From a virus, in IMG/VR virus record IMGVR_UViG_3300003690_000398, positions 1 through 23,914 of that record: a DNA stretch of 23,914 bases, one strand, 5' to 3'. A model generated the notes under the pieces. That model was not told where the DNA came from. It was given only the letters and a program-made list of their open reading frames with translations, and made no database searches. Numbering within the stretch: the first letter of the stretch is position 1; the number at the start of each line of letters is the position of its first letter. The position numbers and the translations under genes are program-made. Shown here one piece after another: positions 142 to 22,289 of this stretch.

Positions 142-813
142 ATGCGGCTACACTTGAACCTTTTCTATGCAAAAGTAATAGGGCTATTCCTGATACTGGG
201 TTCAATTGGATGCTCAACCTGCCATAGAGAGAAGGAAGAAGTACCTAGAAGTTCTTTGGAAATAAGGCAGTATGCTATATCTAATTCCTGTAGGATCACC
301 TGTGGTCAATCCTCGGGATCTGGTATATTAGCCACAGAGAATATAGCTCTTACAGCAAACCACGTTATCTCTGATTATCTATACGGGAGTATTGTTGGGG
401 TAGAAATACCCGGAGATCAGATATCAACGAATTGGGAGGTTGTATATTCTAGTTCTGTGTATGATCTAGCTATTATTAGACGACCAAGCTCCAAGGGACC
501 GGGACGTAGGCGTTGGGTCGGGTGGTCCCCCTCTCTCACCATCGGGCAAAGGGTTTACGCCTCTGGTTATCCTTGGGGCATTGGTCCTATATTGACAAGT
601 GGGTATCTATCCCGTATAAGTGGAGATTACTTTTGGATATCAGCAAACGCCTTACCCGGATCATCCGGTAGTGCAATATACGGATCAGACGGGAAGGTGA
701 TCGGAATACTTGTGAGAGGATTTGTTAGAGGGGGGGATTGGTCACAGTTTACTTTTCATGCTATTCCTGTTAGTTTGTTAGCAGGAGAGCTATCTAAATT
801 GGGCGTTAAGTAG
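142..813 (+). CDS. Trypsin-like (S1/HtrA-type) serine protease with lipoprotein-like signal peptide
   Basis: A 223-residue protein. Residues 1-23 form a basic-then-hydrophobic signal segment ending in GSIGC, so C24 is a possible lipidation site; serine at -3 makes this an atypical lipobox. The mature part shows the chymotrypsin-fold catalytic set: H74 in LTANHV, D108 in VYDLAI and S175 in LPGSSGSA, and the HtrA-like ASGYPWG stretch near 140. No PDZ domain follows, so it is a bare protease domain. It would act outside the cytoplasm, on the membrane or in the periplasm. An AAGGAG ribosome site (130-135) supports the ATG at 142. It heads the visible gene string, before a zinc-ribbon gene. Its role is not known: host envelope processing, superinfection exclusion and virion maturation are all possible. 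Protease identity is solid; the lipoprotein call is moderate. Confidence 0.85.
   Translation: MRLHLNLFYAKVIGLFLILGSIGCSTCHREKEEVPRSSLEIRQYAISNSCRITCGQSSGSGILATENIALTANHVISDYLYGSIVGVEIPGDQISTNWEVVYSSSVYDLAIIRRPSSKGPGRRRWVGWSPSLTIGQRVYASGYPWGIGPILTSGYLSRISGDYFWISANALPGSSGSAIYGSDGKVIGILVRGFVRGGDWSQFTFHAIPVSLLAGELSKLGVK
592..620 (+). promoter_or_regulatory. Consensus-like promoter inside the protease gene
   Basis: TTGACA (592-597), a 17-base spacer, then TATAAG (615-620, 5 of 6 to TATAAT). Transcription would start near 627 and cover 822 onward, so it could drive the packaging genes independently of the protease. The same TTGACAAG...TATAAG arrangement recurs at 14741-14769. Confidence 0.5.
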
Positions 814-1411: not shown

Positions 1412-1730
1412 GGAGTACACCTCTAGGAGATACTTGGAGTCTGAGGAAGAGATCGACAAGAACGAGGCTCTTGAAAAGGCCAAGAGTTATGTAAAGACCG
1501 GAAGGCGAGCTAGGGGACTAAAGAAGTTTCTAGACGAAGACTGGTTTATATCTAAACTATATAACTGGGCGGAGAACGCTTCAAAGGAAGACATGAAGAT
1601 GGATGCTCTTATTAGACTGGGACAACTTCTTCACGGTTATTTCCGTCCTTATGACAAGCAGAAGAATCAGGTTGCAGACGTTACTTTCTCGGAGGCACCA
1701 CCAATAGATGGCAAAGAGAAAGTACAATAA
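1392..1730 (+). CDS. Putative small terminase subunit-like protein
   Basis: 112 residues from the ATG at 1392, chosen because a purine-rich GGGGAAGAAGG ribosome site sits immediately upstream; an earlier in-frame start at 1371 would lengthen the overlap with the previous gene. The protein is helical and charged, with the central stretch DEDWFISKLYNWAENASKED and a Lys/Gln-rich end. No helix-turn-helix can be named with certainty. The call of small terminase subunit (DNA recognition for packaging) rests mainly on its position directly before the large terminase, its size and its helical character. It overlaps the next reading frame by 23 bases. It could equally be an unrelated small regulator. 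Confidence 0.5.
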   Translation: MSEAPDKEYTSRRYLESEEEIDKNEALEKAKSYVKTGRRARGLKKFLDEDWFISKLYNWAENASKEDMKMDALIRLGQLLHGYFRPYDKQKNQVADVTFSEAPPIDGKEKVQ

Positions 1731-1935
1731 GAGGGAGAGGACCCCCGCACAAGAGGCAGCACTAAAGAAGAAGAGATCTGAGGCTGCGAAGAAACGGTGG
1801 GCTAAGTGGAAGGAGAACAAAGCCACGACTAAGGCGCAGACTCCTGTTCCGCAAACTTCCCATGATTCGTTTAAGAAGCTTAACGTATCTATGGACTATA
1901 GCCCCAGACATATGCAGGTGCCAGAGAAGCACTAA
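1708..1935 (+). CDS. Lys/Ala-rich reading frame, probably the N-terminus of the large terminase
   Basis: 75 codons from the ATG at 1708. The first 45 residues are very basic and helical (RKYNKRERTPAQEAALKKKR). The stretch that follows ends in KKLNVSMDYSP, which resembles the lead-in to the phage terminase ATPase domain, where a D/P-H-P-x-Q segment and then the P-loop would be expected. Instead the frame runs out after RHMQVPEKH, while the ATPase continues in the +0 frame from about 1902. I infer that this is the start of the large terminase and that a segment carrying Walker A is absent here. A GGAGG site lies 13 bases upstream, rather far. The alternative is a separate small basic protein. 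Confidence 0.55.
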   Translation: MAKRKYNKRERTPAQEAALKKKRSEAAKKRWAKWKENKATTKAQTPVPQTSHDSFKKLNVSMDYSPRHMQVPEKH

Positions 1936-2720
1936 AGCAGATCTATAAATATAATCGTTTCCCTAATCTCGGATGGATCATCTCCCCTACCTACCCCATG
2001 AGCCAAGTCCCTGAGCGTATGTTCAAAGCATATGCCGGGGACTTGGTTGCTAAACACTTGAAGGGGGAACGGGCTTTCTTAATGGTCCCTCCGAAATCTA
2101 TGCCTAACAACTACTACAGAGTGGAGGTAAAATCTGCCGAGGAACCGGATCGTCTCCGTGGTCCGTCCCTCGGTTGGGTATGGATAGACGAGGGCGCGAT
2201 GATCTCAAAAGATTGTTGGGACATTCTTTTAGGTCGTGTCCTCGATTCCAAAGGCATCATTTTTATTACGACAACCCCAAGGGGAAGAAACTGGCTTTAT
2301 GAAGATGTATACCTCAGGTCGGAGAAGGACGAAAGATACGTTTGTTTGCAAGCACCTACAGCGGAAAATCCTCACTTGGATCCGAAAGAAGTCGAGAACC
2401 TACGAACCAGATATTCAGGCGAATTTGCGAAGCAAGAGCTAGACGCAGAGTTTATGAGCTTTGAGGGACTGGTGTACAAGGGCTACAAGCCTCCGTATCA
2501 CCATGTCAAGCGCAGGGAGATCCCTCAGAACGCAGAGATCGTATGTGGTGTTGACTTCGGATATAACGATCCATTCGTCTGCTTGTGGCTAGCTAAGTGG
2601 GATAACGTGTGGCACGTTGTCGATGAGCATTACCAGAACCACAAGACTATAGACTATCATATACGGGTTATAAAAGAACACCCTCTGAGCATCTGGAATA
2701 AACATTTATCCTGCTATTAA
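1902..2720 (+). pseudogene. Large terminase subunit, ATPase and start of nuclease domain (fragment)
   Basis: An open frame of 272 codons, with a first internal ATG at 1998. It starts with QTYAGAREALKQIY, exactly how the helix after a terminase P-loop (GKTYAGA...) reads, but the P-loop glycines and lysine are missing. Then come GWIISPTYPM, Walker B WVWIDEGA (Asp-Glu at 2187-2192), the FITTTPRGRNWLYE coupling motif, and nuclease motif I CGVDFGYNDP with its aspartate at 2553. The frame leaves the family after VIKEHPL and ends at 2720. The product of an intact gene cuts and pumps phage DNA into the procapsid at the portal. As written, the fragment could not hydrolyse ATP by the usual mechanism. 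Confidence 0.85.
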
Positions 2721-3129
2721 GACTCAGGACAAGGGATCTCGTAAGTGGATACACACCGGGATTCAGGAGGTGACTAGGTGGCTTAACCTGCAATCCCCTA
2801 ATGGAGATCCTCGGTTTGAGGTCTGGAAGAATTGTGTTAATACAAACGCAGAGTTCATGCAGTACAGGTACCGGGAGTCCAAGATGAATTCCGGGGAGAT
2901 ACCTGTTGATGTTTCTAATCATGCCATGGATGCGTTGCGATATGCGATAACGTCAGAGTCAAGAACTAGGGGAGACTTCCACCCAAGGTACCCGGATGAC
3001 AAGGGGAACGCAAAAATTATGACGAGCAAGGATAAGCTGAACAATACCTTGTCAGAATATTTTTCTCACGCAGACAAAAATAAGACTAGACAAGGGACCT
3101 CAATTTTCCCATCATGGTACATGGACTAG
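2689..3129 (+). pseudogene. Large terminase subunit, C-terminal nuclease part (fragment)
   Basis: An open frame in +1 relative to the preceding fragment. From 2692 it reads SGINIYPAIKTQ, the strand that normally follows the second conserved aspartate region of the terminase nuclease, then a long helix, and NHAMDALRYAI (2917-2949), the conserved C-terminal motif whose Asp (codon 2929-2931) completes the metal site. A GTG at 2770 gives an in-frame start of 119 residues, but no good ribosome site or reason for an independent protein is seen. About 20-25 residues expected between HPL of the upstream fragment and GINIYPAIK are absent, including the usual DP motif. This is the tail of the same terminase gene. 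Confidence 0.85.
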
Positions 3130-3379: not shown

Positions 3380-5167
3380 ATGCCAATACCGCCTTCACTA
3401 GTAGGGGACAAGGGGGTTCCAAACGTATCGATGAACGAGGATGAACTCGTTGATCGCGTTTGGAAAGACATTAAGAAGGGTAAGAAACGCAGGGATATCT
3501 TTGCCAAGAACTGGCATAAGTGGTATTCCCTGTATTCTGGAAACCACTGGGACAAGGCTAGGCCAGAGTGGATGTCTGAGCCAGTAATCAATCTTACGTT
3601 CTCCACTATTGAAACCATCTTACCGATCCTTACGGATAACGCTCCTCAAATCTCAGTGGTTCCGTTTGAGCCAGATGATATTGATATCGCCAGAGTCTTG
3701 TCTGAGATAGTCAAGGCTAACTGGGAGTATAACGATATGGATGTCAAGCTACCTAAGGTTGTAAAGAATACCCTTATCTTCGGTAACGGGTTCCTAAAGG
3801 TAGACTGGGATCAGGGTGCGAGGAAGGGTCTAGGGGATATCAGAATGACTCCCATTGATCCAGAGAGCATTGTAGTCGATCCAAACGGGGTATGCCCAGA
3901 TTCTATACAATGGATAGCACAGGTCCAAAACGTACCGAAAAAACTACTTGAGTCAAACGAGGTTTGGGCAAGTAAGGTCGGGGATATCCGTAGTGGTACC
4001 TTTGACCCAACATTTACTATAAATAGAACTATATCCTCCCAAGGTTCCAGAAGGTCGGGAGACGCACAATATACAGATACCCAAGGGAAGCAAGCGTGGG
4101 ACTACACAACGGATGGTAGGCAGAACAAGGACACCGATGACTTAGTTACTCTGGTGGAGCTTTGGGAGCGCGATGCGTTTACCGGGGAGATCAGGAAGGT
4201 TGTTATCGCAAACGACACACTCCTAGAGGACTCCCCGTCACCATTCAAACACGGATACTTCCCTATAGTGCAGTTTGTTGACTACGCGGTAGGTTGGGAA
4301 TACTGGGCCTCGGGTGAGGTGCAGCACGTTGAGAAGCTACAGATGGAGATAAACAAGCGTCGAGGAATGATGATCGACATTCTAAAATTCACCTCGATGC
4401 CGATGCTCGTTGTAGATCCTACATCTGGTGTAGACTACGAGAACTTGGTGGCTCGTCCCGGCTTAGTTATACCAGCAATCGGTGGGGGACAGGCAGTAAA
4501 CTGGTTGCCACCCCCAAGGATGCCCGGTGAATTGTTTGCTATGAATGACCGGGATAAGCAGGACTTCGATACAATCCTTGGTAATGTAGACGTTTTGCAG
4601 GGTCGTCGTCCTACGGGCGTTGAAGCTGCTGCCGCTATCGAGGCACTTACTGAGGCAGCTAATACTAGGATGCGACTCAAGGTTCGGTATCTGGAGGCAT
4701 CGTTACGTCAGGTCGGAAGGCTTGTGGTATCAATGATTCAGCAGTTCTATAATACAAAGCGAATCATCAGGGTTACTGGTCGTGACGGTGAGGAACTTCT
4801 TGATGCTGCGGTTGACTTTATTACGGTAAATAATCCCGAGGGTGTTACAGATGAGGGTCAGCTTACCCTTGATAATATTATTCCTGAAGATACAGAGTTC
4901 GATGTTCGCATAGGTGCAGGGTCTACGTTGCCAGTTAGTAGAGCAACGAGATTTAGTCAGGCTATGCAGTTATATCAGGTTAAAGCCATTGACCAGACGG
5001 AGCTTCTCAAACATTCGGCTTGGCCGAGGTTTGAGGAAGTTATCGCTAGAATGAGACAGGAACAGGCTCAGGCTATGGCTATGATGAGACAAGCACAAGG
5101 AGGATCTCCGAGTGGTTCGGAAGGTCTAGGTGCCATGATGGGTGGCGGCAAACCGCCAGAAGAATAA
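3380..5167 (+). CDS. Portal protein
   Basis: 595 residues, the usual size for a podovirus portal. The N-terminal part has WYSLYSGNHWDKARPEW and then the segment INLTFSTIETILPILTDNAP, typical of portals of this type (a buried helix after the substrate-binding wing), followed by DPESIVVDPNG and a long helical stem around residues 310-480. The C-terminus is Met/Gln/Ala/Gly-rich (RMRQEQAQAMAMMRQAQGG), like a barrel or crown tail. GGGAG upstream supports the ATG at 3380. The portal forms the dodecameric ring through which the terminase loads DNA and on which the adaptor (9745-10608) docks. It follows the terminase, as in most tailed phages, and the frame is intact. Confidence 0.9.
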   Translation: MPIPPSLVGDKGVPNVSMNEDELVDRVWKDIKKGKKRRDIFAKNWHKWYSLYSGNHWDKARPEWMSEPVINLTFSTIETILPILTDNAPQISVVPFEPDDIDIARVLSEIVKANWEYNDMDVKLPKVVKNTLIFGNGFLKVDWDQGARKGLGDIRMTPIDPESIVVDPNGVCPDSIQWIAQVQNVPKKLLESNEVWASKVGDIRSGTFDPTFTINRTISSQGSRRSGDAQYTDTQGKQAWDYTTDGRQNKDTDDLVTLVELWERDAFTGEIRKVVIANDTLLEDSPSPFKHGYFPIVQFVDYAVGWEYWASGEVQHVEKLQMEINKRRGMMIDILKFTSMPMLVVDPTSGVDYENLVARPGLVIPAIGGGQAVNWLPPPRMPGELFAMNDRDKQDFDTILGNVDVLQGRRPTGVEAAAAIEALTEAANTRMRLKVRYLEASLRQVGRLVVSMIQQFYNTKRIIRVTGRDGEELLDAAVDFITVNNPEGVTDEGQLTLDNIIPEDTEFDVRIGAGSTLPVSRATRFSQAMQLYQVKAIDQTELLKHSAWPRFEEVIARMRQEQAQAMAMMRQAQGGSPSGSEGLGAMMGGGKPPEE

Positions 5168-5431: not shown

Positions 5432-6655
5432 ATGGCAACAGGAAGAAACCGGGATATGTCTAAGGAGTACCTCTCCACTATGGTGAGGATACGAACCGAT
5501 GTGCAAGGTCACATTATCGTACAGTTCCTTAATCCATCTACAGGTGAGTATTCGCAAACTCCTCCCGGCATTTCGGAACGCACCTCTGCTGAGTTTTGGG
5601 GTGGCGGCTCCGGTGGCGGAGGTGGGGGAGGAGGTTCCGGTGGAGGACCTCCGGGTGGTGGTGATGATGACCCCGGTAGGAAGGATGAACCAGACCCTAG
5701 AAATCGTAAAGAAGATCCAGCTTCAAGCTATCAACATGATGCCCCTGAACCTAATCAACCTGATGGACCGGGTGGAGGATGGAAAATACCGGATGACTGG
5801 GTTCCTACTGGTGGGGAACCTACTCCTGTTGGTGGTGGTGAGGACGATCCTGAGAACCCAACTGATGCCCCTGTCGCCACGGGAGATGATGGTGGTTACT
5901 ACGACCCAGTAGATCGTCCTGAGCAACCAGTCGGTACTGGTACTCCACCTCCTATACCAGAGGAAGAGGAAGTGAGGGACGAGGAGGAAGGCGGTCGCCC
6001 GTTACCGGGTGCCTTCCCTGAGTTCGGTAGTGAACCAGAAGGTTACGGTGGTCCTCCCGGTGGGTCAAACGATAACCCCCCTGATTGGCCCGGTTGGAGA
6101 GAAGGTGCCCCTAAACCACCGTTCTGGAAAAACCCAGAGGGTGAGAAAGAATTTGATAAGAGGAGGGAAGGAGAGGTGTGGGAAGCTATCCCCGGACCCG
6201 GTGGAGGAGGAGAACAGGAACCTGCGGAGTGGGAAGAGGATGAGCCTACCACTACTGGGGTAGGTCCAGAACCCGGTAGGGATCTTATGAAGGGGATGTC
6301 CTTTTCCGTAGGTTCGTCAGGGTTTTCTCAGCCCTCAGTAGAGAGTCAGGATGAACAGGCGCTTAACAGGCAGAGGATGGATTTTCTACGAGCTATCGAA
6401 GGTCCGGTAGATGCTGAGGCTATTTCTTATACTGACACGCTAGGGTCACCGGGTGATATTGGTATGCAAGGACAAAGGGGTTCACAATATATTGAAGGTG
6501 GCGCTGAGATTAAAGGTGGGATAAAATCGTTTGCAAACCCAATGGCAGCAGCAGATCACGCTAGAAAGCAGAATAGACGTAAGGCACTTATAGATGGAAT
6601 ACCAAGAGTTTCAAATCGGACAGATAGTGGTGGTGGTCACGGAGGTCCCGAGTAG
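5432..6655 (+). CDS. Long Gly/Pro/Glu/Asp-rich, mostly disordered protein
   Basis: 407 residues. Residues about 1-53 look foldable (VRIRTDVQGHIIVQFLNPST). They are followed by a Gly/Ser run, then about 220 residues of Pro, Gly, Asp and Glu with very few hydrophobics and a strongly acidic net charge. The last 110 residues regain helix-forming character (LNRQRMDFLRAIEGP and AAADHARKQNRRKALIDG). Such an acidic disordered linker between two small ends is unusual among portal-scaffold neighbours. GGGGTAG lies just upstream of 5432. The stop overlaps a GTG of the next gene. The function is unknown; a virion-associated tether or an assembly helper are possibilities. Open over its whole length, with no shift seen. 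Confidence 0.75.
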   Translation: MATGRNRDMSKEYLSTMVRIRTDVQGHIIVQFLNPSTGEYSQTPPGISERTSAEFWGGGSGGGGGGGGSGGGPPGGGDDDPGRKDEPDPRNRKEDPASSYQHDAPEPNQPDGPGGGWKIPDDWVPTGGEPTPVGGGEDDPENPTDAPVATGDDGGYYDPVDRPEQPVGTGTPPPIPEEEEVRDEEEGGRPLPGAFPEFGSEPEGYGGPPGGSNDNPPDWPGWREGAPKPPFWKNPEGEKEFDKRREGEVWEAIPGPGGGGEQEPAEWEEDEPTTTGVGPEPGRDLMKGMSFSVGSSGFSQPSVESQDEQALNRQRMDFLRAIEGPVDAEAISYTDTLGSPGDIGMQGQRGSQYIEGGAEIKGGIKSFANPMAAADHARKQNRRKALIDGIPRVSNRTDSGGGHGGPE

Positions 6656-7971: not shown

Positions 7972-8919
7972 ATGGCTTTGCCGTATGACCAAATTACCGC
8001 TATGACACACGCACTTATCGAGGACAGTGCGGCGGATAACTTTTTCGATAGCAACCCTCTTTTTTATTGGTTGAAAGAAAAAGGACAGGTCATCTATGAT
8101 GGGGGTACTCATATTCAGGAACCCATTGTATATGACGATGTTGACGCTGCCGGGTCTTTTGCGAATTACGATATTCTTGATACTTCCCCGAATGAGCAGC
8201 ATACCGCTGCGGAAACAGATATTCGGAGGTATTATGTCAATATCGTAATTTCAAGACATGAGCTTCTCCGTGCGAGTGGCAAACAAGCGGTTATCAATCT
8301 CTTGGACTCTAAAGTTCAGGTAGGTAACTTAACAATGGCAGATCAGATTTCAACTGATCTTCACTCGGCTAATACAGATTCCGATGTTGGGATCGTCGGG
8401 TTACAGGCTATTGTTAAATCTACTGGTACTCTACATAGTATCGCTCCCGCAGACGCGCCAGTCTGGGCATCCTCTCTGGGTACCCTTTCTGGTGGCGCAT
8501 TGACCCTTCGGGCGATGGATGATCTGTGGGAAACTCTGTCCGTAGGAAATGACGCTCCTAAAATGTTGGTAACAACAAGAGCGGCACTTTCTAAATTCAA
8601 ATCTCTACTTGTCGCCAATCAGAGGTTCGGAGAAGCGGAAAAGGTTTCTGGCGGTTTTAGGGCTGTTATGTTCAATGATGTCCCTGTTTTTGCTGATCCT
8701 AAGACGGCGATCCTTCCGGGTAACGATCATTATATGTACTTCCTCAATCCTAGTTGGTTGAAGATGTATGTACATCGGGATGATAACTTCACCTCGACAC
8801 CGTTCCCGGTGACGCCTAATCAGGACGTTGTGGGTAGTCGTTTGACGGCATCTTTGCAGGTCATGTGTAACAACAGACGTATGCAGGGATATTTCAACGA
8901 CATTGATCCTACGGCGTAA
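7972..8919 (+). CDS. Major capsid protein (HK97 fold inferred)
   Basis: 315 residues. It starts MALPYDQITAMTHALIE, and the middle has DIRRYYVNIVISRHELLRAS followed by a helix that ends in MADQISTDLHS, a signature of a common phage capsid family (the spine helix after the E-loop strand). A C-terminal beta-rich part (VFADPKTAILPGNDHYMYFL, then LQVMCNNRRMQGYFNDIDP) matches the A-domain end. AGGT upstream supports the ATG at 7972. It is intact, lies between scaffold and the decoration-like gene, and would form the icosahedral shell. The HK97 fold is inferred from family resemblance, not seen directly. Confidence 0.85.
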   Translation: MALPYDQITAMTHALIEDSAADNFFDSNPLFYWLKEKGQVIYDGGTHIQEPIVYDDVDAAGSFANYDILDTSPNEQHTAAETDIRRYYVNIVISRHELLRASGKQAVINLLDSKVQVGNLTMADQISTDLHSANTDSDVGIVGLQAIVKSTGTLHSIAPADAPVWASSLGTLSGGALTLRAMDDLWETLSVGNDAPKMLVTTRAALSKFKSLLVANQRFGEAEKVSGGFRAVMFNDVPVFADPKTAILPGNDHYMYFLNPSWLKMYVHRDDNFTSTPFPVTPNQDVVGSRLTASLQVMCNNRRMQGYFNDIDPTA

Positions 8920-9421: not shown

Positions 9422-9745
9422 ATGGGATTCTTTGAACACGCAGAGCATGGATACCAGTTCATAGTACCTACAGTGTATAGCGGGGCACAGTCAGGGGTAG
9501 AGGTTCTCGCAGCCCAGTCAGGAAAAAGAATTGTTATAGACAAAATTATTTTCTCTAGGGATCAGGCAGGGACAATGAAGTTACTCTCAGCCTCTACTGA
9601 TGTAACGAATACTTTTTATTTTGATGCTAAGGGTGGCGTTGTTCTTGATGACCTTAGGTTGGTGTGTGGTAATACCGAGGCACTAAGTATCACAACTACC
9701 GGAGACGGAGATCACTCCATACTGCTGAGGTATTATACGCAGTAA
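9422..9745 (+). CDS. Small beta-rich virion protein, probable head component
   Basis: 107 residues starting after a perfect GGAGG site (9412-9416). The sequence is a chain of short beta strands (RIVIDKIIFSRDQAGTMKLL, NTFYFDAKGGVVLDDL, HSILLRYYT), suggesting an Ig-like or jelly-roll sandwich without signal or membrane parts. It comes right after the capsid-decoration locus and its stop overlaps the ATG of the adaptor gene (TAATG), so it belongs to the head-completion block. A second decoration protein is a reasonable guess, but no family is recognised. Confidence 0.6.
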   Translation: MGFFEHAEHGYQFIVPTVYSGAQSGVEVLAAQSGKRIVIDKIIFSRDQAGTMKLLSASTDVTNTFYFDAKGGVVLDDLRLVCGNTEALSITTTGDGDHSILLRYYTQ

Positions 9746-10608
9746 TGACTAATCTAGCCGCTTTAACTACTGACTTACAGACTAGGTTTGCCGATAAGGA
9801 AGGTAGGTTTCTTACCGAGGCAGATGCACACAGGTATCTTAATGTAGCGTACCACGAATTTTGTGGGAAGACAGATGCCCTTAGGCGGGAAACCGGAATT
9901 CCCGTAGTTGCAAACCAGTATATGTACGAGCAACCAAGGGACTTTGTAAAGCCCGGTATTATGATGTGGATGAAGGATACCAGAAGGCGACTAGAGTTTA
10001 AGCCTTTAAGATATTTTGCCGAGTATGGGGGACTTGATCTAACCAGAACAGGACCACCCTACTTTTATACATACCATATAGGGGAATTGGGGGCAAGTGG
10101 TGGGCAACTACGCCTTTGGCCCTCACCCACATCTAGTTCAGAAACTACTACCCATCCCGGTAATATTGGGGCTAGTGTTTCTACTATAACTGTAGTTAGT
10201 ACAGCAAACTTTAGAGATCGTGGTTGGGTTAAACTAGGCCAAGAGCAGATACTATATTATTCAAAGACACCCACAACATTTAATCAATGCGAGCGTGGTG
10301 TTGGTGGATCTATTGCGGGAACTCATCTTGCGGGTGGTACTGTTACTCAGCTTGATATCCATATGTGGTACTATTATCAGGATACTGATATGACTGGCGG
10401 GACACAGAGTCCCCAGTTCCCTGAGCCATTCCATGACTGTTTGGTAGTCGGGGCTTTATATAGAGCGTTGCTATCAGATGGTAGAGAGCAGCAAGCAAGA
10501 CCCGCACTTCAGGAGTGGGCAGGTATGCTAGGGTGGGGTAAGTCAGAGTTCCAGAAAGCCCAGTCTAGTAACTTCTTAAATATAGGTAGGCAAAGTGGGT
10601 ACGACTAA
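9745..10608 (+). CDS. Head-tail adaptor (podovirus neck protein, T7 gp11/P22 gp4-like role)
   Basis: 287 residues. The start LTTDLQTRFADKEGRFLTEA, then DAHRYLNVAYHEFCGKTDAL, is the helical pattern of phage adaptor proteins (short first helix, acidic turn, ALN-like second helix), followed by VVANQYMYEQPRDFVKP strands and the end HDCLVVGALYRALLSDG with a final helix. Between residues about 135 and 203 a beta-rich insertion (VSTITVVSTANFRDRGWVKL and QILYYSKTPTTFNQCERGV) looks like a small domain common in phage structural proteins. The adaptor binds the portal and carries the tail nozzle. Both ends overlap neighbouring genes as TAATG. Confidence 0.75.
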   Translation: MTNLAALTTDLQTRFADKEGRFLTEADAHRYLNVAYHEFCGKTDALRRETGIPVVANQYMYEQPRDFVKPGIMMWMKDTRRRLEFKPLRYFAEYGGLDLTRTGPPYFYTYHIGELGASGGQLRLWPSPTSSSETTTHPGNIGASVSTITVVSTANFRDRGWVKLGQEQILYYSKTPTTFNQCERGVGGSIAGTHLAGGTVTQLDIHMWYYYQDTDMTGGTQSPQFPEPFHDCLVVGALYRALLSDGREQQARPALQEWAGMLGWGKSEFQKAQSSNFLNIGRQSGYD

Positions 10609-12173
10609 TGGCAGAGCTTATAGAAGGTGCCGATAATCTAGAGGGTGGACTTGTTACCAACGTACCCAGTCACCTACTGAGGCGTAGCCAATCCCCCGAT
10701 GCTATTAACTTTGATCCATCTAATCAGGACGGAGTTACTAAAAGACAGGGCTTTACTACCTATCTAGCATCCGGTGATGGTGGTACTTGTAATACCGCAG
10801 GTATAATAATCGCTAGAGATACCGGGGTAGCATCAGGTAGTAAGAGAGTAGTAGTTGCGGCCACCAATGTAGCGGGGGCTTGGAAGCTATATGACGTTAC
10901 TGTTGCAGGGTGGTCACCTGCGGGTATACCGGGTGGTTGGGACTTCTCTGGGGCGACTGGAGATTTGTCTACATTTAGCTACCCGGTTGACTTACATATG
11001 TATGATGATCTTACTATTGTTCTAAACAAGGGTGGTGGTCCTTGGAAGAGCATAGGAAGTCCTGTTGCCATCGACTTAGGTGCCGCTGCTTCTGATATGG
11101 CTTTAATAGCAGGAGCGCAGTATGGTGAGATCCATAAGGGTAGATTTTGGGTGTCTGGAAGAACTGCTTCGCCAACTACTATTTATTGGAGTGACCTCCA
11201 TGACCCTACGAGTTGGACACCTAATGCGGAGTCACCAAACGCGGGTAACGAAACCCTAAATAAAAATGACGGGAATCAAGTTAATGGTATGTGTTCCGTA
11301 GGTGAGGTTCTGTATGTCTCTAAGATATCACCTGAGACTGGAACGAACCCCAACGGAACAGAGGGATCTATTTATGGACTTTTTGGAACGGACCAGATCC
11401 TCAGTTCTGCTATTAGAAAGGTTGCTAATTTCCCTGCGGTAAGTCACAGGGCGATGATTGATTATGATGGAGTCCTTGTGTGTGCTACCCCAAATGGGAT
11501 ATTCTCCGTATCTGGTAAGGGAATTGCCCTGTTATCCAGAGATATACAGGATCTATACGAATCAATACCAAATAAAGACAGTATACAAATCTGTAGATAT
11601 AGGAACCAAATACTATTCGCCTATGATTCAGCAGGTAGTTCTTGGCCCAATCAAGTCAACAATAGAATTTTGGTGCTAGATATAGGTCGTGGGAGATGGA
11701 GTCATTACACCGGAACAATCGGCAATATAAGCTGCATGACAAATGAGTGCGATACCGGGGAAGTAGTATTTATTGGTAACGGTGTAAATAGACGACTAAT
11801 GCAATATCCCGTTGGAACAAACGATAACGGTGTTGCGATAGCCTTCCACTGGTCCACCCCGGATCTAGACTGGGGAGATTTCTTTAGGGATAAGCAGGTA
11901 AAGCAGTTCTTTCTATACACCTTAGATACCGGAGACTTTGACCTGAAGCTAACTCGCACGTTGGATGGTGCCCCACAAACTGATACTCCTAATATAACTG
12001 TAAACGTGCAAGGGACAGGAACTATTGATAAGCTAGTCCACAGAGTTGTAACTCCATCCGGGGATAGGAACTCCCGGTTTACTAGGTTCAAAATAGAGAA
12101 CAACGAGCTTAATGAGCCGATAACTCTTCGTGGGTTTTCCTGCTATGCTAATATGTTAGATGCTACGAGGTAA
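10608..12173 (+). CDS. Beta-propeller-like tail nozzle/stabilisation protein
   Basis: 521 residues. The N-terminus NLEGGLVTNVPSHLLRRSQS, then DAINFDPSNQDGVTKRQGF, is typical of the tail nozzle or head-completion proteins of many podoviruses (the role of T7 gp12 or P22 gp10), where a portal-proximal arm precedes a beta-propeller. Most of the rest alternates short strands and turns with motifs such as GRFWVSGRTASPTTIYWSDL, DYDGVLVCATPNGIFSVSG and LVLDIGRGRWSHYTG, consistent with propeller blades. It follows the adaptor with a one-base overlap. Frame intact. The specific fold is inferred from repeat pattern and position. Confidence 0.75.
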   Translation: MAELIEGADNLEGGLVTNVPSHLLRRSQSPDAINFDPSNQDGVTKRQGFTTYLASGDGGTCNTAGIIIARDTGVASGSKRVVVAATNVAGAWKLYDVTVAGWSPAGIPGGWDFSGATGDLSTFSYPVDLHMYDDLTIVLNKGGGPWKSIGSPVAIDLGAAASDMALIAGAQYGEIHKGRFWVSGRTASPTTIYWSDLHDPTSWTPNAESPNAGNETLNKNDGNQVNGMCSVGEVLYVSKISPETGTNPNGTEGSIYGLFGTDQILSSAIRKVANFPAVSHRAMIDYDGVLVCATPNGIFSVSGKGIALLSRDIQDLYESIPNKDSIQICRYRNQILFAYDSAGSSWPNQVNNRILVLDIGRGRWSHYTGTIGNISCMTNECDTGEVVFIGNGVNRRLMQYPVGTNDNGVAIAFHWSTPDLDWGDFFRDKQVKQFFLYTLDTGDFDLKLTRTLDGAPQTDTPNITVNVQGTGTIDKLVHRVVTPSGDRNSRFTRFKIENNELNEPITLRGFSCYANMLDATR

Positions 12174-17222: not shown

Positions 17223-20200
17223 ATGGCTCAAGAATCTGAATCTGGCAATCTTTACCAAGAAGACCCTGTATACCGAAGAATCCAAAATCTAACCAACTAC
17301 TATAATCCCAAACAAAGGTCTGCTTACGTTTCGGCTCAGGGAGAAGACCCCATCTATGCCCCAAGGTACGCCGACCAGTATAGTAAAGGGGGTTTAGTAA
17401 ATCCGTGGGATGCTAAAAGAGCTAGGCAAGCACAGTCTATATATGATAAACCTGCCGAAGAGCCTGTAAAAATCAATCCCTATACTGGTCACTACGAGGG
17501 TGAAGAGAAGTCCGTTGGTGGGTTCTTTGAATTTCTTGCCGATGATTTCGTTCATATGGGCAAGGGATTTGCGATGATGGCAGTAGAGGCTTGGAATGAG
17601 TCTATCTGGCTATGGGATAACGCCGAGGATATCGGACTAATCTTTAACAAAACTCTTCCAGCAGAAAGTCAATCACGCCAGTTCCAGAAAACTTCCGCCC
17701 TTAATAAGTCTGTTTGGGATTGGATGGATACCTTCCAACTTGGTAAGGAGGTTAGGTTTACTGCTGACCAGATAATAGAGGCAACCATTAGTCCCTACGA
17801 GGACGGGCTAGTAGAGGCTATATATCACAGACCGTTTACCTTCTTTCTTGATCTTACTGCGGTGGTATCTTTAATAGGAAAGGCAGGTTCGTTGGCAGGT
17901 AATGCTGCTATCAGGTCCGGTTCTGTAGCTGCCAAGACTAAGTACATGAATAGACTTAGGGAAAGACCACCATCACGGCAATTCATTAACAACCCTGATG
18001 GGCGGAAGGTAATGATTAAGGAGCAGGGGAGTAGGTTCGACCAGAAGTATAGGGCATTATTTGAAAGACCCCGAAAGAAGCAGGTACAAAAAATCTCCCA
18101 GTTTATATCCGACTCTCCTTACTTGGCGTTTAAGGCACCGTTTAAGGTAGCAGATAACTCTATGGTTCGTGGTGCCTTTAAGGAAACCGGGATAGCGAAA
18201 AAGTATGTAGATATAAAATCTTATATAGCAGGTACCCCAACTGCTAGGGCAGCTATTAAAATGTGGGGATCAATCATGGGTAAGCTGAGGATGGAAGTAA
18301 ACCTTAACTACACCCATTGGTCAAATGATCTACCACTACTTATCCCTAGACATGGAGAACGGGCATACTGGCATTACTTTTATAAGGTAGATGAGTTAGG
18401 TAATCACGTTACATATTTTAGAGAGAAGGGAAAACTAAAGCACACCGACGAGTTGTGGTCAGAGCTTGGACTAGACGTTACTTCCAAAACACCGGGGGAG
18501 CTTGGTAAGAAGCAAAGTGTCGCGCAACTACAGGTGCTTAAAGAGAAGGCATCGCTACATAGCGACTGGTCTTTCAGTAATGCCGAGGCAGCTTACTGGG
18601 ACTTCGGTTGGAGAAAGTCTCAGGACGGAGCATTGTCAGCACGGGCACACTCCCTGCTTGCACACCTAGCATTTGAAAAGGCAGAGCTAGAGATAGGTGC
18701 AGCACTTCTAGCCATTAAAAACAAGGGTGGTAAAACCGCTAAGAAGTATATGATCTTTGGTGAGGAGGCACTCCCGGCAACAGAACGTCAGGTAATCCAC
18801 CAGAAATGGCGAGATAAGTATGTTAATGTTGACTACAAATCTGCCAGACAAGCATTAGCAGAAGTAAAGAGAATCATTAAACGTGCTGAGAGCGAGAAGC
18901 ATGGGATGGGGAAGCCTATAGTCCCATATGCCCCCTTTGTCCAAGCAAAGACTATGGATGTCCTTACCTTTACTGATGTACTAACTGGTGAGAGCTTGCT
19001 CAAATCTATAGGTAAGAAGGGGAATCTTGAGAAGAGGTTCGGTAGGGCTGCGATTACTATGGACGTTCATACCGTAGCGTTCAAACATTTCCAGAGAGCG
19101 GCAGATGTTAAGTATACCCTGCAAGCGGTTAGTGCCCTACAGAATAAGTGGGGTAAAAAGATGCGGGTTTCAGGGGATAAGGCACAGGCAAACATAGCCC
19201 GTACTCACCCAAACTGGGAGGAGACAGTACCCTCTCATATGCTGAATAAATATTTTGATAGCGAGTTAATGATACAACGGGGGATGGTAGACGAGTACGC
19301 AAAGCTATACTTGTCTATATCTGAGGAGTACAAGGCGTTAAGAAAAGATCCTAAGAGGCTTGCAGCGTGGTATAAAAACGACGAGGTTGGTAAGCAACTA
19401 GCCAAGGGTATCGAGATCCGAGGTAAGGTCCACAAAGAACTTACAGACGATCTAGTACAGGAAATGTCGGAGTTACGTTCCGCGCAGTTAAACCTAAACA
19501 ACTGGTCCAACAGACACAAGCATCTGGAACTTACTGAGAAAATCAGGAAGACTTGGGAAGACTTTCTTGTGAAGGAGATCGGTAGTGAGTGGAGATGGTT
19601 TGTTCCTAAGGAAATTAACCGGGTCATCCACTTACAGATCCAGTCACTAACGGGCGGTATAAAGCTTTGGGCACCGATTCTTAATCAGTACCGATTTATG
19701 GCACTCAATTTATTCCCCCGATTTTATATAAACAACTATATAGGTAACTCGATACTTACCCTGTTCTCTGGTGCTGCCCATCCAAAGTATGCAGAAGCTA
19801 AGAATCTATCGTATAAGTATTTCCCTGAAGCTATGCAGAATGTTATCACACAGGAACCAAACGCATTTATTCAAGCCACCTTTAGAAAAACCGGGTGGAG
19901 TAGGGTTGTATTAAAATATTCTAAGAAGATGATGCAGGAGTTTCAGGTAAGTGCTGAGTACACCCCAAGAATCCTAGCTATGGCACAGGGGTACCACGGT
20001 TCCCTGATGAAGAGGAGGTATACCAGAACCCTACAGGCTGCGGGAGACTTCGATCTGAAGATAGCCAAGGCGCTAGAGTCTGGAATGGAGGCGTACAGGA
20101 AACAGCAGGTACAGGCAGGTGCATCAATCGCAGCTACCAATCAATTCCTCGGAGAGATACGAAAGCAAAACGAGTTTAGAGAGGAGTTAGCTAGGAATGT

Positions 20201-22289
20201 AGCAAGTCAGGTTGACCTTCTAGACGAGCTTAAAGGCAAGAACGGTACTATGGCAGGTAAAGCCAAGACGGACCTAATAGCCACGCTCGTAGGAGACATG
20301 GAAGGTGTAATAGTAAAGCTAAAGAAACATGGTGCATCAGACCAGACTCCGTTTATAAAGTGGTGGGATGAACAGACTATTGGTGGGTTTACCCACTCCC
20401 AAATAGCAGGTCTTATTGATTATATAGGCAAGCCCGGTAGGTCTAAGGCATGGGAAATAGGTCTTAGTGGCGCAGTGGGTAGAACAAACTTAGCAGCACA
20501 GGAAATATTGAACGGATTCAGGCAGAGACTAACTGGTATTAAGGACATTGAGAAGGCTATTCCTGATGTTACTATGCGTGACCTCCCTAACGGTGGTATA
20601 GTTTATACCGGATACCACGGTACTTATAGCACAAGATCACCGGGTCGTAGGGGGAAGACTGATATCCATAGCGGTACCCATGCCGCTGCAAAGGATAGGC
20701 TATACAATATAGCACCGGAACGACTGGACGAGATGTCTCCACAGGCTAGGGCTGCATTAGCTAAGGTTAAGGGTCCTAAAGCACATGAGCCAAGTGGTGG
20801 TCCTGTTACTCCCGGCTCTAAGGGTAGGGTTTATGCTACCGAAACAACACTAAAAAAACCATACGGGTCTAGGTCTAAGCCTATCTCAGAGGTGGAGATG
20901 GCTAAGATACTAAGGAGTCCCAGAAAACTAGCGGCACTTAAAAAGAAGCACGACGGTATCGTTTATATTAACGAGGTAGAAGATGCAGGGAAGGTTAGCG
21001 TACTAGCATTTAGTAGCAGATCTATCAAGCTAGGAGAAAGGGTTGACAGTGTCAAGAAGATAAGACCCAAAAAAACGCAACCCAGATCTGTTACGCCGAC
21101 AGGCTACGCGGGTCGATTGGATCAGCTAGATGTTTTGGATATGTTTGTTAGGAATAATAAGTATTCCAAGGTAATCGGGAAGCATACTCTGGAATCAATG
21201 GGCATTCCTAAGAGTCAGATACCTGCCCTTATAAGAGATGCTGCTAGATACAGGACTAAGTTTAGAAGGTACGCCAGAGCAACCCAAAAGATGCTAAAGA
21301 AGATAGATGAGCTTAGTCTTGAGAAGGCTATACTTAAACTAGATGATGCTCTCAAGAAGCTCCCGCTAAGTAAGGCGGAAAAGATAAGAGCCACCATGTT
21401 CGGTGAAGCTATTGACCACATGGAAGTATTCTTTGGGGCATATAACTCAATTCACCCAATAGAGAAGGCACTTGTTAGGAACATATTCCCATTCTGGACG
21501 TTTCCAAAAACAATGTTCATGCTCATGTTCCGATATCCGGGTATAAGACCTAAGAGTGCAGCACTATGGGCACACGTTAGCGAGTATATGATACAGTCTG
21601 TCAACCCAGATACCGCAACAAGGAGGTTTGCTAACTCTATAGCCCTTGGTGGATATGCAGATGGATTCTTACGGTTTGTTAGGTACGGTAGTTGGAATCC
21701 ATTCGATGGTAACAGACTAATGCGGATAGGTAACGCACCTATATTCCCGCAAGGGCTTAATCCGGTCAATGCTAACCCGGCATTTAAGGTATTCATTGAA
21801 ACTACCTATGGTCGGGATACATTTACAGGGTACCCGGCAGGATCTAGAGAGTGGATGTCTCCTTCCGGGGAAATCATGGAACCAGATCCTACAGATCCCG
21901 GTAAGTTTAGATTTAGGACGCCACAGAAGCCATTCCTTGAGGCGGTAGCCTCCGCCTTCCTACCACATTGGAGAATGTACAGGGAAATTACTGATCCAAA
22001 TGCTACCATACCTAAAATCCCCGGGACTGACGAGTACCCGTATGAGCGTAAGAAATGGTGGGGTTTGATGCGCCTGTTAGGTGTGGGAGTTACCATTAGA
22101 GACGCTCAACAGTTGAAGGCACAGGACTATGCCTATAGAACCCAGCTATATGAACGCATAAGAAAGGTTTCTCAATTCTACGGCAAGGATGAGAAAGAGA
22201 TAGCGGAGAAGTGGTGGAAAATGTACCTGATCGGGAGAGATCAGAAGAACGGTGGTGGTGATAATTTCATGTTTAACCCGAGGTTCTAG
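17223..22289 (+). CDS. Giant internal virion protein (T7 gp16-like place) with embedded ADP-ribosyltransferase-like domain
   Basis: 1688 residues; T7 gp16 is 1318. GGAG (17213-17216) precedes the ATG. Amphipathic and hydrophobic helices lie at residues about 100-137 (FFEFLADDFVHMGKGFAMMA), 204-229 (FTFFLDLTAVVSLIGKAGSL), 819-851 (RFMALNLFPRFYINNYIGNS) and 1420-1443 (NIFPFWTFPKTMFMLMFRYP), the last two resembling membrane-contact segments of large phage ejection or polyvalent proteins. Residues about 1128-1270 show YHGT (1131-1134), HSGTHAAAKDRL (from 1149), GRVYAT, HDGIVYINEVED (from 1243) and VLAFSSRSIK (to 1269): the order and spacing of the ART-PolyVal type, with candidate H1132, a Tyr and E1251 or E1253 at the NAD site. 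No transglycosylase motif was found. The protein would be ejected with the DNA; catalytic activity is inferred, not shown. Confidence 0.75.
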   Translation: MAQESESGNLYQEDPVYRRIQNLTNYYNPKQRSAYVSAQGEDPIYAPRYADQYSKGGLVNPWDAKRARQAQSIYDKPAEEPVKINPYTGHYEGEEKSVGGFFEFLADDFVHMGKGFAMMAVEAWNESIWLWDNAEDIGLIFNKTLPAESQSRQFQKTSALNKSVWDWMDTFQLGKEVRFTADQIIEATISPYEDGLVEAIYHRPFTFFLDLTAVVSLIGKAGSLAGNAAIRSGSVAAKTKYMNRLRERPPSRQFINNPDGRKVMIKEQGSRFDQKYRALFERPRKKQVQKISQFISDSPYLAFKAPFKVADNSMVRGAFKETGIAKKYVDIKSYIAGTPTARAAIKMWGSIMGKLRMEVNLNYTHWSNDLPLLIPRHGERAYWHYFYKVDELGNHVTYFREKGKLKHTDELWSELGLDVTSKTPGELGKKQSVAQLQVLKEKASLHSDWSFSNAEAAYWDFGWRKSQDGALSARAHSLLAHLAFEKAELEIGAALLAIKNKGGKTAKKYMIFGEEALPATERQVIHQKWRDKYVNVDYKSARQALAEVKRIIKRAESEKHGMGKPIVPYAPFVQAKTMDVLTFTDVLTGESLLKSIGKKGNLEKRFGRAAITMDVHTVAFKHFQRAADVKYTLQAVSALQNKWGKKMRVSGDKAQANIARTHPNWEETVPSHMLNKYFDSELMIQRGMVDEYAKLYLSISEEYKALRKDPKRLAAWYKNDEVGKQLAKGIEIRGKVHKELTDDLVQEMSELRSAQLNLNNWSNRHKHLELTEKIRKTWEDFLVKEIGSEWRWFVPKEINRVIHLQIQSLTGGIKLWAPILNQYRFMALNLFPRFYINNYIGNSILTLFSGAAHPKYAEAKNLSYKYFPEAMQNVITQEPNAFIQATFRKTGWSRVVLKYSKKMMQEFQVSAEYTPRILAMAQGYHGSLMKRRYTRTLQAAGDFDLKIAKALESGMEAYRKQQVQAGASIAATNQFLGEIRKQNEFREELARNVASQVDLLDELKGKNGTMAGKAKTDLIATLVGDMEGVIVKLKKHGASDQTPFIKWWDEQTIGGFTHSQIAGLIDYIGKPGRSKAWEIGLSGAVGRTNLAAQEILNGFRQRLTGIKDIEKAIPDVTMRDLPNGGIVYTGYHGTYSTRSPGRRGKTDIHSGTHAAAKDRLYNIAPERLDEMSPQARAALAKVKGPKAHEPSGGPVTPGSKGRVYATETTLKKPYGSRSKPISEVEMAKILRSPRKLAALKKKHDGIVYINEVEDAGKVSVLAFSSRSIKLGERVDSVKKIRPKKTQPRSVTPTGYAGRLDQLDVLDMFVRNNKYSKVIGKHTLESMGIPKSQIPALIRDAARYRTKFRRYARATQKMLKKIDELSLEKAILKLDDALKKLPLSKAEKIRATMFGEAIDHMEVFFGAYNSIHPIEKALVRNIFPFWTFPKTMFMLMFRYPGIRPKSAALWAHVSEYMIQSVNPDTATRRFANSIALGGYADGFLRFVRYGSWNPFDGNRLMRIGNAPIFPQGLNPVNANPAFKVFIETTYGRDTFTGYPAGSREWMSPSGEIMEPDPTDPGKFRFRTPQKPFLEAVASAFLPHWRMYREITDPNATIPKIPGTDEYPYERKKWWGLMRLLGVGVTIRDAQQLKAQDYAYRTQLYERIRKVSQFYGKDEKEIAEKWWKMYLIGRDQKNGGGDNFMFNPRF

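Follow-up and report, generated by a model that had tools for sequence, protein, structure and literature searches.

Does the 1688-residue protein encoded at the gp16 position of this viral contig carry an ADP-ribosyltransferase (ART), and what would such a domain do there? The window examined is the whole stretch of 23,914 bases of the IMG/VR virus record IMGVR_UViG_3300003690_000398, and the protein in question is called P0001, or the carrier, throughout (Table 1). From first to last, the window encodes the portal, the capsid protein, the adaptor, the tail tube, several small proteins, the 801-residue protein, the 1688-residue carrier and the fibre-position protein, an arrangement similar to that in Anabaena phage A-4L. 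The carrier gene follows those for portal, capsid and tail tube and precedes the tail-fibre-position gene, a location expected of a protein of the A4 gp26 type. The 801-residue neighbor matched no family, and close relatives sought through it were not found.

Table 1. Features of the window and of P0001, with positions in the window
Feature	Position	Strand	Basis
Portal protein	3380..5167	+	phrog_156, E 1.7e-63; A4 portal by blastp, 4.5e-6
Major capsid protein	7972..8919	+	phrog_9953, E 6e-49
Head-tail adaptor	9745..10608	+	SU10_adaptor PF24175, E 2.6e-15
Tail-tube (gp12-position) protein	10608..12173	+	phrog_511, E 5e-5; position
gp14-position protein, 210 aa, single strong hydrophobic segment	13649..14281	+	hydropathy; position only
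gp15-position protein, 801 aa	14814..17219	+	position only
Carrier P0001, gp16-position protein, 1688 aa	17223..22289	+	open frame
N-terminal module, residues 165-234, hydrophobic segment 207-225	17715..17924	+	blastp 5e-6 to L120
PRFYINNYIGN, carrier-family motif, residues 832-842	19716..19748	+	pattern search, blastp
Lineage-specific insert holding the ART, residues about 1103-1380	20529..21362 (approximate)	+	alignment with L120, L124, L128 and L130
ART-PolyVal-like domain, residues about 1126-1272	20598..21038	+	profile, hhalign, AF2
YHGT, residues 1131-1134; strand-1 histidine His1132 at 20616-20618	20613..20624	+	
HSGT, His1149 at strand-2 position	20667..20678	+	alignment
HDGIVYINEVE with Asp1244, Gly1245, Glu1251 and Glu1253	20949..20981	+	alignment
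C-terminal carrier module, residues about 1390-1680, FPFWTF...NPAFKVFIETTYGRDTFTG	21390..22262	+	33% identity to L124, E 3e-41
Tail-fibre-position protein, 450 aa	22289..23641	+	position only

Three other features of the window deserve mention. The large terminase region (1653-3129, + strand) is in pieces: 1998-2720 and 2770-3129 do not share a reading frame, and an N-terminal ATPase part is not present in frame upstream; the break may be a real defect, a deletion or a sequencing error. Adjoining the packaging genes, positions 142-813 (+) encode a 223-residue trypsin-like protease with a lipoprotein-type signal, which matches Trypsin_2 (E 2e-17) and the protease parts of PADLOC RT-Protease-type systems (4e-9). 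Such a protease, possibly exported, is unusual beside phage packaging genes. Between the portal and scaffold genes, positions 5432-6655 (+) encode a 407-residue protein of extreme Gly/Pro/Asp/Glu content.

The ART-PolyVal-like domain of P0001

The carrier frame is open over 1688 codons and holds the motifs where an earlier note on this DNA, made by reading the sequence, had placed them. Homologous domains were collected from viral contigs using a degenerate DNA pattern for DGIVYxNExE, the motif of the query itself. Most of the 84 stretches obtained encode, within large phage proteins, a domain of the form VVYHGT...HFGT..A..R...VYLxIxNP...YDGIVYxNExE...SYIAFxPxQIKSA. A family profile made from 28 of these homologous phage domains, with the query excluded, matched residues 1131-1269 of P0001 with 42.6 bits (E 7e-12), versus 10.2 bits (E 0.07) for the best among 2000 in the shuffle control. 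Comparison of the ART domain by hhalign gave an E value of 5e-8 over 136 columns.

Two controls were added because the collection of domains was biased by the DGIVYxNExE motif. After truncation ahead of the motif, so that neither it nor anything downstream contributed, P0001 was still the top sequence, over residues 1131-1163, with 10.0 bits and an E value of 0.064 for 2002 sequences. On the 185 residues upstream of the motif, the query scored 13.1 bits, whereas none of the ten motif-bearing proteins that are not ARTs exceeded 0.2 bits. A profile of the part after the motif, which consists of the C-terminal strand alone, was powerless to discriminate. At the level of sequence it is confirmed that the motif set of P0001 is not a product of chance and that the ART-PolyVal-type domain is real, its relationship being remote but significant.

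The earlier note had assigned the domain to the ART-PolyVal type. This assignment stands through the subfamily profile and its controls, but not through the Pfam profile of the family, PF18760, which gave no match to P0001 or to its domain at E values up to 10, left the query unmatched in a scan of the alignment and yielded no candidate in a six-frame search. The same profile matches 40 of the 43 sequences in the structural alignment (best E 9e-32). Since the subfamily matches PF18760 and the query does not, we regard the domain of P0001 as a divergent relative of ART-PolyVal that is tied to the family via an intermediate subfamily. Its identity to the aligned relatives is approximately 15-30%. 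Searches of P0001 and of its ART segment against Pfam, PHROG and PDB sequences returned nothing useful, the profile of the ART alignment matched no PDB sequence, and no whole-protein relative of P0001 was present in 50,697 phage records or in a single-sequence scan of viral contigs.

The predicted fold agrees with the sequence evidence; it is not strong by itself and is not independent of the alignment of homologues, since that alignment (43 sequences) was the input of the AlphaFold2 model. The model of the domain has a pLDDT of 70, with a core of about 80 to 92. Its best viral match is the virion RNA polymerase (vRNAP) of Roseobacter phage RD-1410W1-01 (E 5e-5), followed by several proteins named ART-PolyVal. 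The leading PDB matches, MbcT, ParT, NatT, diphtheria toxin and tankyrase, are all members of the ART superfamily, whose split beta-sheet the earlier note had expected. The strength of the PDB matches is moderate, with a Foldseek E value of 0.008 at best, none below 0.001, and VIA-align Z scores no higher than 7.0. The second-best PDB match is a chain of the A4 pre-ejectosome, 9k3a_B (E 0.056).

Conserved residues and predicted chemistry

The active site of ART-PolyVal domains was described as a histidine in strand 1, a tyrosine in strand 2 and an aspartate in strand 5 (PMC5512222). His1132 of P0001 is invariant in all 43 aligned domains. At the strand-2 position, which is His in 38 of 42 relatives and Tyr in two, the query has His1149, the first residue of HSGTHAAAKDRL (residues 1149-1160); nearly all of the relatives with His at this position match PF18760, and the HSGT of the query replaces their usual HFGT. 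Asp1244 and Gly1245, within HDGIVYINEVED (residues 1243-1254), are kept in 42 of 42 relatives, five of which lack the full NExE search motif and were found by profile. The segment that aligns with the VYLxIxNP strand of the relatives is approximately ALAKVKGPKAHEP (1177-1189), and VLAFSSRSIK lies at about residues 1260-1269. Judged from the alignment, conservation falls on His/His/Asp plus NExE and not on the His/Tyr/Glu cluster proposed earlier, from which the strand-1 His survives and the Tyr does not. Likewise, the proposed list of motifs holds for YHGT and the two segments around His1149 and Asp1244, but not for GRVYAT (near 1201-1206), which falls in a low-confidence loop of the AF2 model and aligns with no conserved column.

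Membership in the R-S-E ARTs of the T4 Alt/VIP2 kind was considered and rejected, because strand 1 of the query has His and strand 2 has HSGT. A large ART-PolyVal subfamily (alignment A3; loci L005-L088) is marked by a strand-2 HFGT and a strand-5 DGIVYxNExE; in these proteins His replaces the Tyr of the family, and their chemistry may be different. ART-PolyVal domains also occur in tandem: a single open frame of 2407 residues in Dolichospermum phage Dfl-JY45 (L004; 66928-73464 of its record) holds about five copies, and a similar locus, L041, holds five.

The retained residues bear on whether the domain would be an enzyme at all. It might have kept the ART fold and lost catalysis, acting within the core of the ejectosome as a structural element or one that binds DNA or nucleotides. 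The divergence of the domain below Pfam detection, its HSGT in place of HFGT and the low-confidence loop are compatible with this, as is the plasticity of ejection proteins in size and domains (PMC8954989). However, H1132, H1149, D1244, G1245, N1250, E1251 and E1253 have all been kept at an overall identity as low as that given above, and this argues against an inactive domain, which would be expected to lose some of its active-site residues. We consider loss of activity unlikely, though with some real weight.

If the domain is active, its substrate could be NAD+ itself. MbcT and NatT, which are among the closest solved folds, are toxins that degrade NAD+, and P0001 could by analogy degrade NAD+ or serve as an NAD-based counter-defence enzyme instead of transferring ADP-ribose to a host protein. 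The rank of a fold match is, however, no guide to chemistry; the toxin ParT, which modifies a protein, ranks equally high, and the viral matches are ART-PolyVal proteins. This makes a purely NAD-directed enzyme improbable, and the ART of P0001 is most likely a virion-delivered effector that would ADP-ribosylate a target (or consume NAD+).

The carrier and its ART-less relatives

Relatives of the carrier without an ART, of approximately 830 to 860 residues, were found by the pattern PRFxxNNxxGN, and four closer relatives, L120, L124, L128 and L130 (1034 to 1176 residues in their records), by a second pattern. In blastp, P0001 matched the closer relatives with E values of up to 3e-41 over residues 1396-1678, 2e-10 over 772-850 and 5e-6 over 165-234, the best value for any of the four being 3e-46. 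The hydrophobic segment of the N-terminal module is also present in the ART-less family. The portal family of the window is present in the records of all four closer relatives, where PF18760 has no match, and eight records of the carrier family hold this portal family.

The distance from PR[FY]xxNNxxGN to PFWTF is 263 to 307 residues in the four closer relatives versus 590 in P0001. The ART is located in the alignment gap, residues 1103-1380 or so being largely absent from these proteins. The shorter spacing of the motifs and the gap at the ART identify it as a lineage-specific insert, and the gain of an ART that the earlier note had put forward is borne out by this comparison of proteins with and without it. 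A segment of about 280 residues containing the ART would have entered the protein after the PRFxxNNxxGN module and ahead of the C-terminal PFWTF module. In base composition the insert falls inside the range seen across the remainder of the gene, which offers no hint of recent transfer. Searches brought up no close relative that shares the fusion, which is known from one 23.9-kb contig fragment; a scan of GTDB genomes with the ART-less family returned no relative. An AF2 model of the C-terminal module, built from five sequences, was discarded: its pLDDT of 38 deprives the fold matches of meaning, among them one with Z 2.5 to another A4 pre-ejectosome entry, 9k2v.

The family of the carrier can be related to a solved assembly, the pre-ejectosome of cyanopodophage A4 (PDB 9k3a), reportedly described by Hou et al. 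in 2025. Matching by sequence identified chain A of this structure as gp26 and chain B as gp27 of the phage, also known as Anabaena phage A-4L. The C-terminal module of P0001 together with the ART-less family aligned with the A4 gp26 family in hhalign with an E value of 2.5e-6 over 155 columns, the best among 100 column-shuffled controls being 0.081. P0001 alone compares weakly with A4 gp26 (E 0.09), the link passing through the ART-less family. Given this homology and a gene order that parallels that of A-4L, the carrier is best described, from its sequence, as a gp26-type ejection protein. The T7-like ejectosome protein of the earlier note is therefore kept as far as its gp16 position and its ejection type (A4 gp26 family) are concerned, but shows no similarity to T7 gp16 itself in PHROG, Pfam or PDB sequences, nor a relative in the phage records searched. 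It resembles T7 gp16 in position in the gene order, size and proposed role. The N-terminal transglycosylase domain carried by T7 gp16 makes that protein, too, partly enzymatic; P0001 has no transglycosylase, and no second enzymatic domain was detected in it, carrier and ART being combined in its 1688 residues.

Placement of P0001 outside the ejected set, as a tail or capsid component with an ART acting late, on the virion or on lysis, is very improbable: database entries for A4 homologues often read "tail protein" or "tail fiber", but A4 gp26 and gp27 are chains of the solved pre-ejectosome, and the order portal, capsid, adaptor, tail tube, carrier, tail fibre fits an ejection protein.

The A4 assembly has an ART-like segment of its own. 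Near the C terminus of gp27, at residues about 1425-1590, the sequence reads LYHGT...GSGTYFS...VDALTDGD, and a [YF]HG[TS]RV...GTxxY segment was seen by eye in six of six gp27 homologues, one of them deposited as "mono-ADP-ribosyltransferase-like protein". The match of PF18760 to the gp27 segment, with E 0.0035, is below the cut-off. The two systems share the carrier family, a similar gene order and an ART-like segment within one assembly. They differ in that A4 has the segment in gp27, behind a ParB-like part, and none in gp26, whereas in the window the gp26-like protein itself contains it. The ART segments of A4 gp27 and P0001 are not close in sequence, and gp27 resembles none of the proteins of the window. 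Among Saffermanviridae cyanopodophages, gp27 has the ART-like segment in L110 (20116-25269, - strand), L111, L112, L114 and L115, and is mostly deposited as "tail protein", "hypothetical protein" or "ParB-like". In Pbo-yong3, gp26, the neighbor of gp27, is deposited as DNA-directed RNA polymerase.

Proposed role at DNA entry

Our preferred reading, to which we give a probability of about 0.6, is that P0001 is an ART-bearing ejection protein of a podovirus that would modify an early host target or consume NAD+ during DNA entry. P0001 would be an internal virion protein. Because both its N-terminal and its C-terminal module place it in the A4 gp26 family, it would be packaged into the head as a pre-ejectosome component, exit with the DNA and help to build a channel across the host envelope. 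For T7 gp16, the region between two membrane segments was placed in the host cytoplasm (PMC8954989). If this topology holds for P0001, the ART, which has the N-terminal hydrophobic module on one side and the C-terminal module on the other, would be exposed to the cytoplasm as the DNA enters, before phage transcription. There, like T4 Alt, it would spend host NAD+ to ADP-ribosylate an early host target, for instance the polymerase or some other conserved factor; alternatively, it would consume the NAD+.

T4 Alt is a free head protein with an ART of the R-S-E clade that is delivered with the DNA at the start of infection. P0001 would work like it in the timing of delivery, and is unlike it in having an H-type active site and in being fused to its carrier. 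Polyvalent proteins are large virion-associated proteins in which unrelated domains are combined (Iyer et al. 2017). Those with ART-PolyVal domains, for example the vRNAP of Roseovarius Plymouth podovirus 1, resemble P0001 in being giant phage proteins that are presumably injected, and P0001 has their strand-1 His, strand-5 Asp and QIK-type end strand. It differs from them in lying below Pfam detection, in having His for Tyr in strand 2 and in that its carrier is an ejection protein of the channel type.

The delivery system was at first taken to be little described, which does not hold. A 2017 description of polyvalent proteins covered ARTs in giant phage proteins presumed to be injected (PMC5512222), a later survey placed 44% of phage ARTs in contexts suggestive of packaging in the head (PMC9503650), and the solved podovirus pre-ejectosome has its ART-like segment. 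Delivery of enzymes with phage DNA is thus already known, A4 gp27, the Roseovarius podovirus vRNAP and the polyvalent proteins being precedents. What is new is the fusion of an ART to a gp26-type subunit, the recognition of the carrier family and the gain shown against ART-less relatives. This connects predicted virion-delivered ARTs with ejection proteins of a class that has a relative in a solved pre-ejectosome.

Since the subunit that carries the ART here differs from that of A4, the comparison suggests that ARTs move between the proteins of the ejectosome, as lysozyme domains do between gp15 and gp16 of the T7 type (PMC8954989). A bolder and doubtful extension, which we put forward tentatively, is that the channel-forming ejection protein is itself the effector, each subunit holding an active ART in the host cytoplasm. 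If this were true, opening of the channel and reprogramming or disarming of the host would be one act, and, together with A4 gp27, the ejectosome would be a general, interchangeable mounting site for host-modifying enzymes. If active, the ART of P0001 would provide a testable case of an enzyme that works from the DNA entry channel before phage gene expression.
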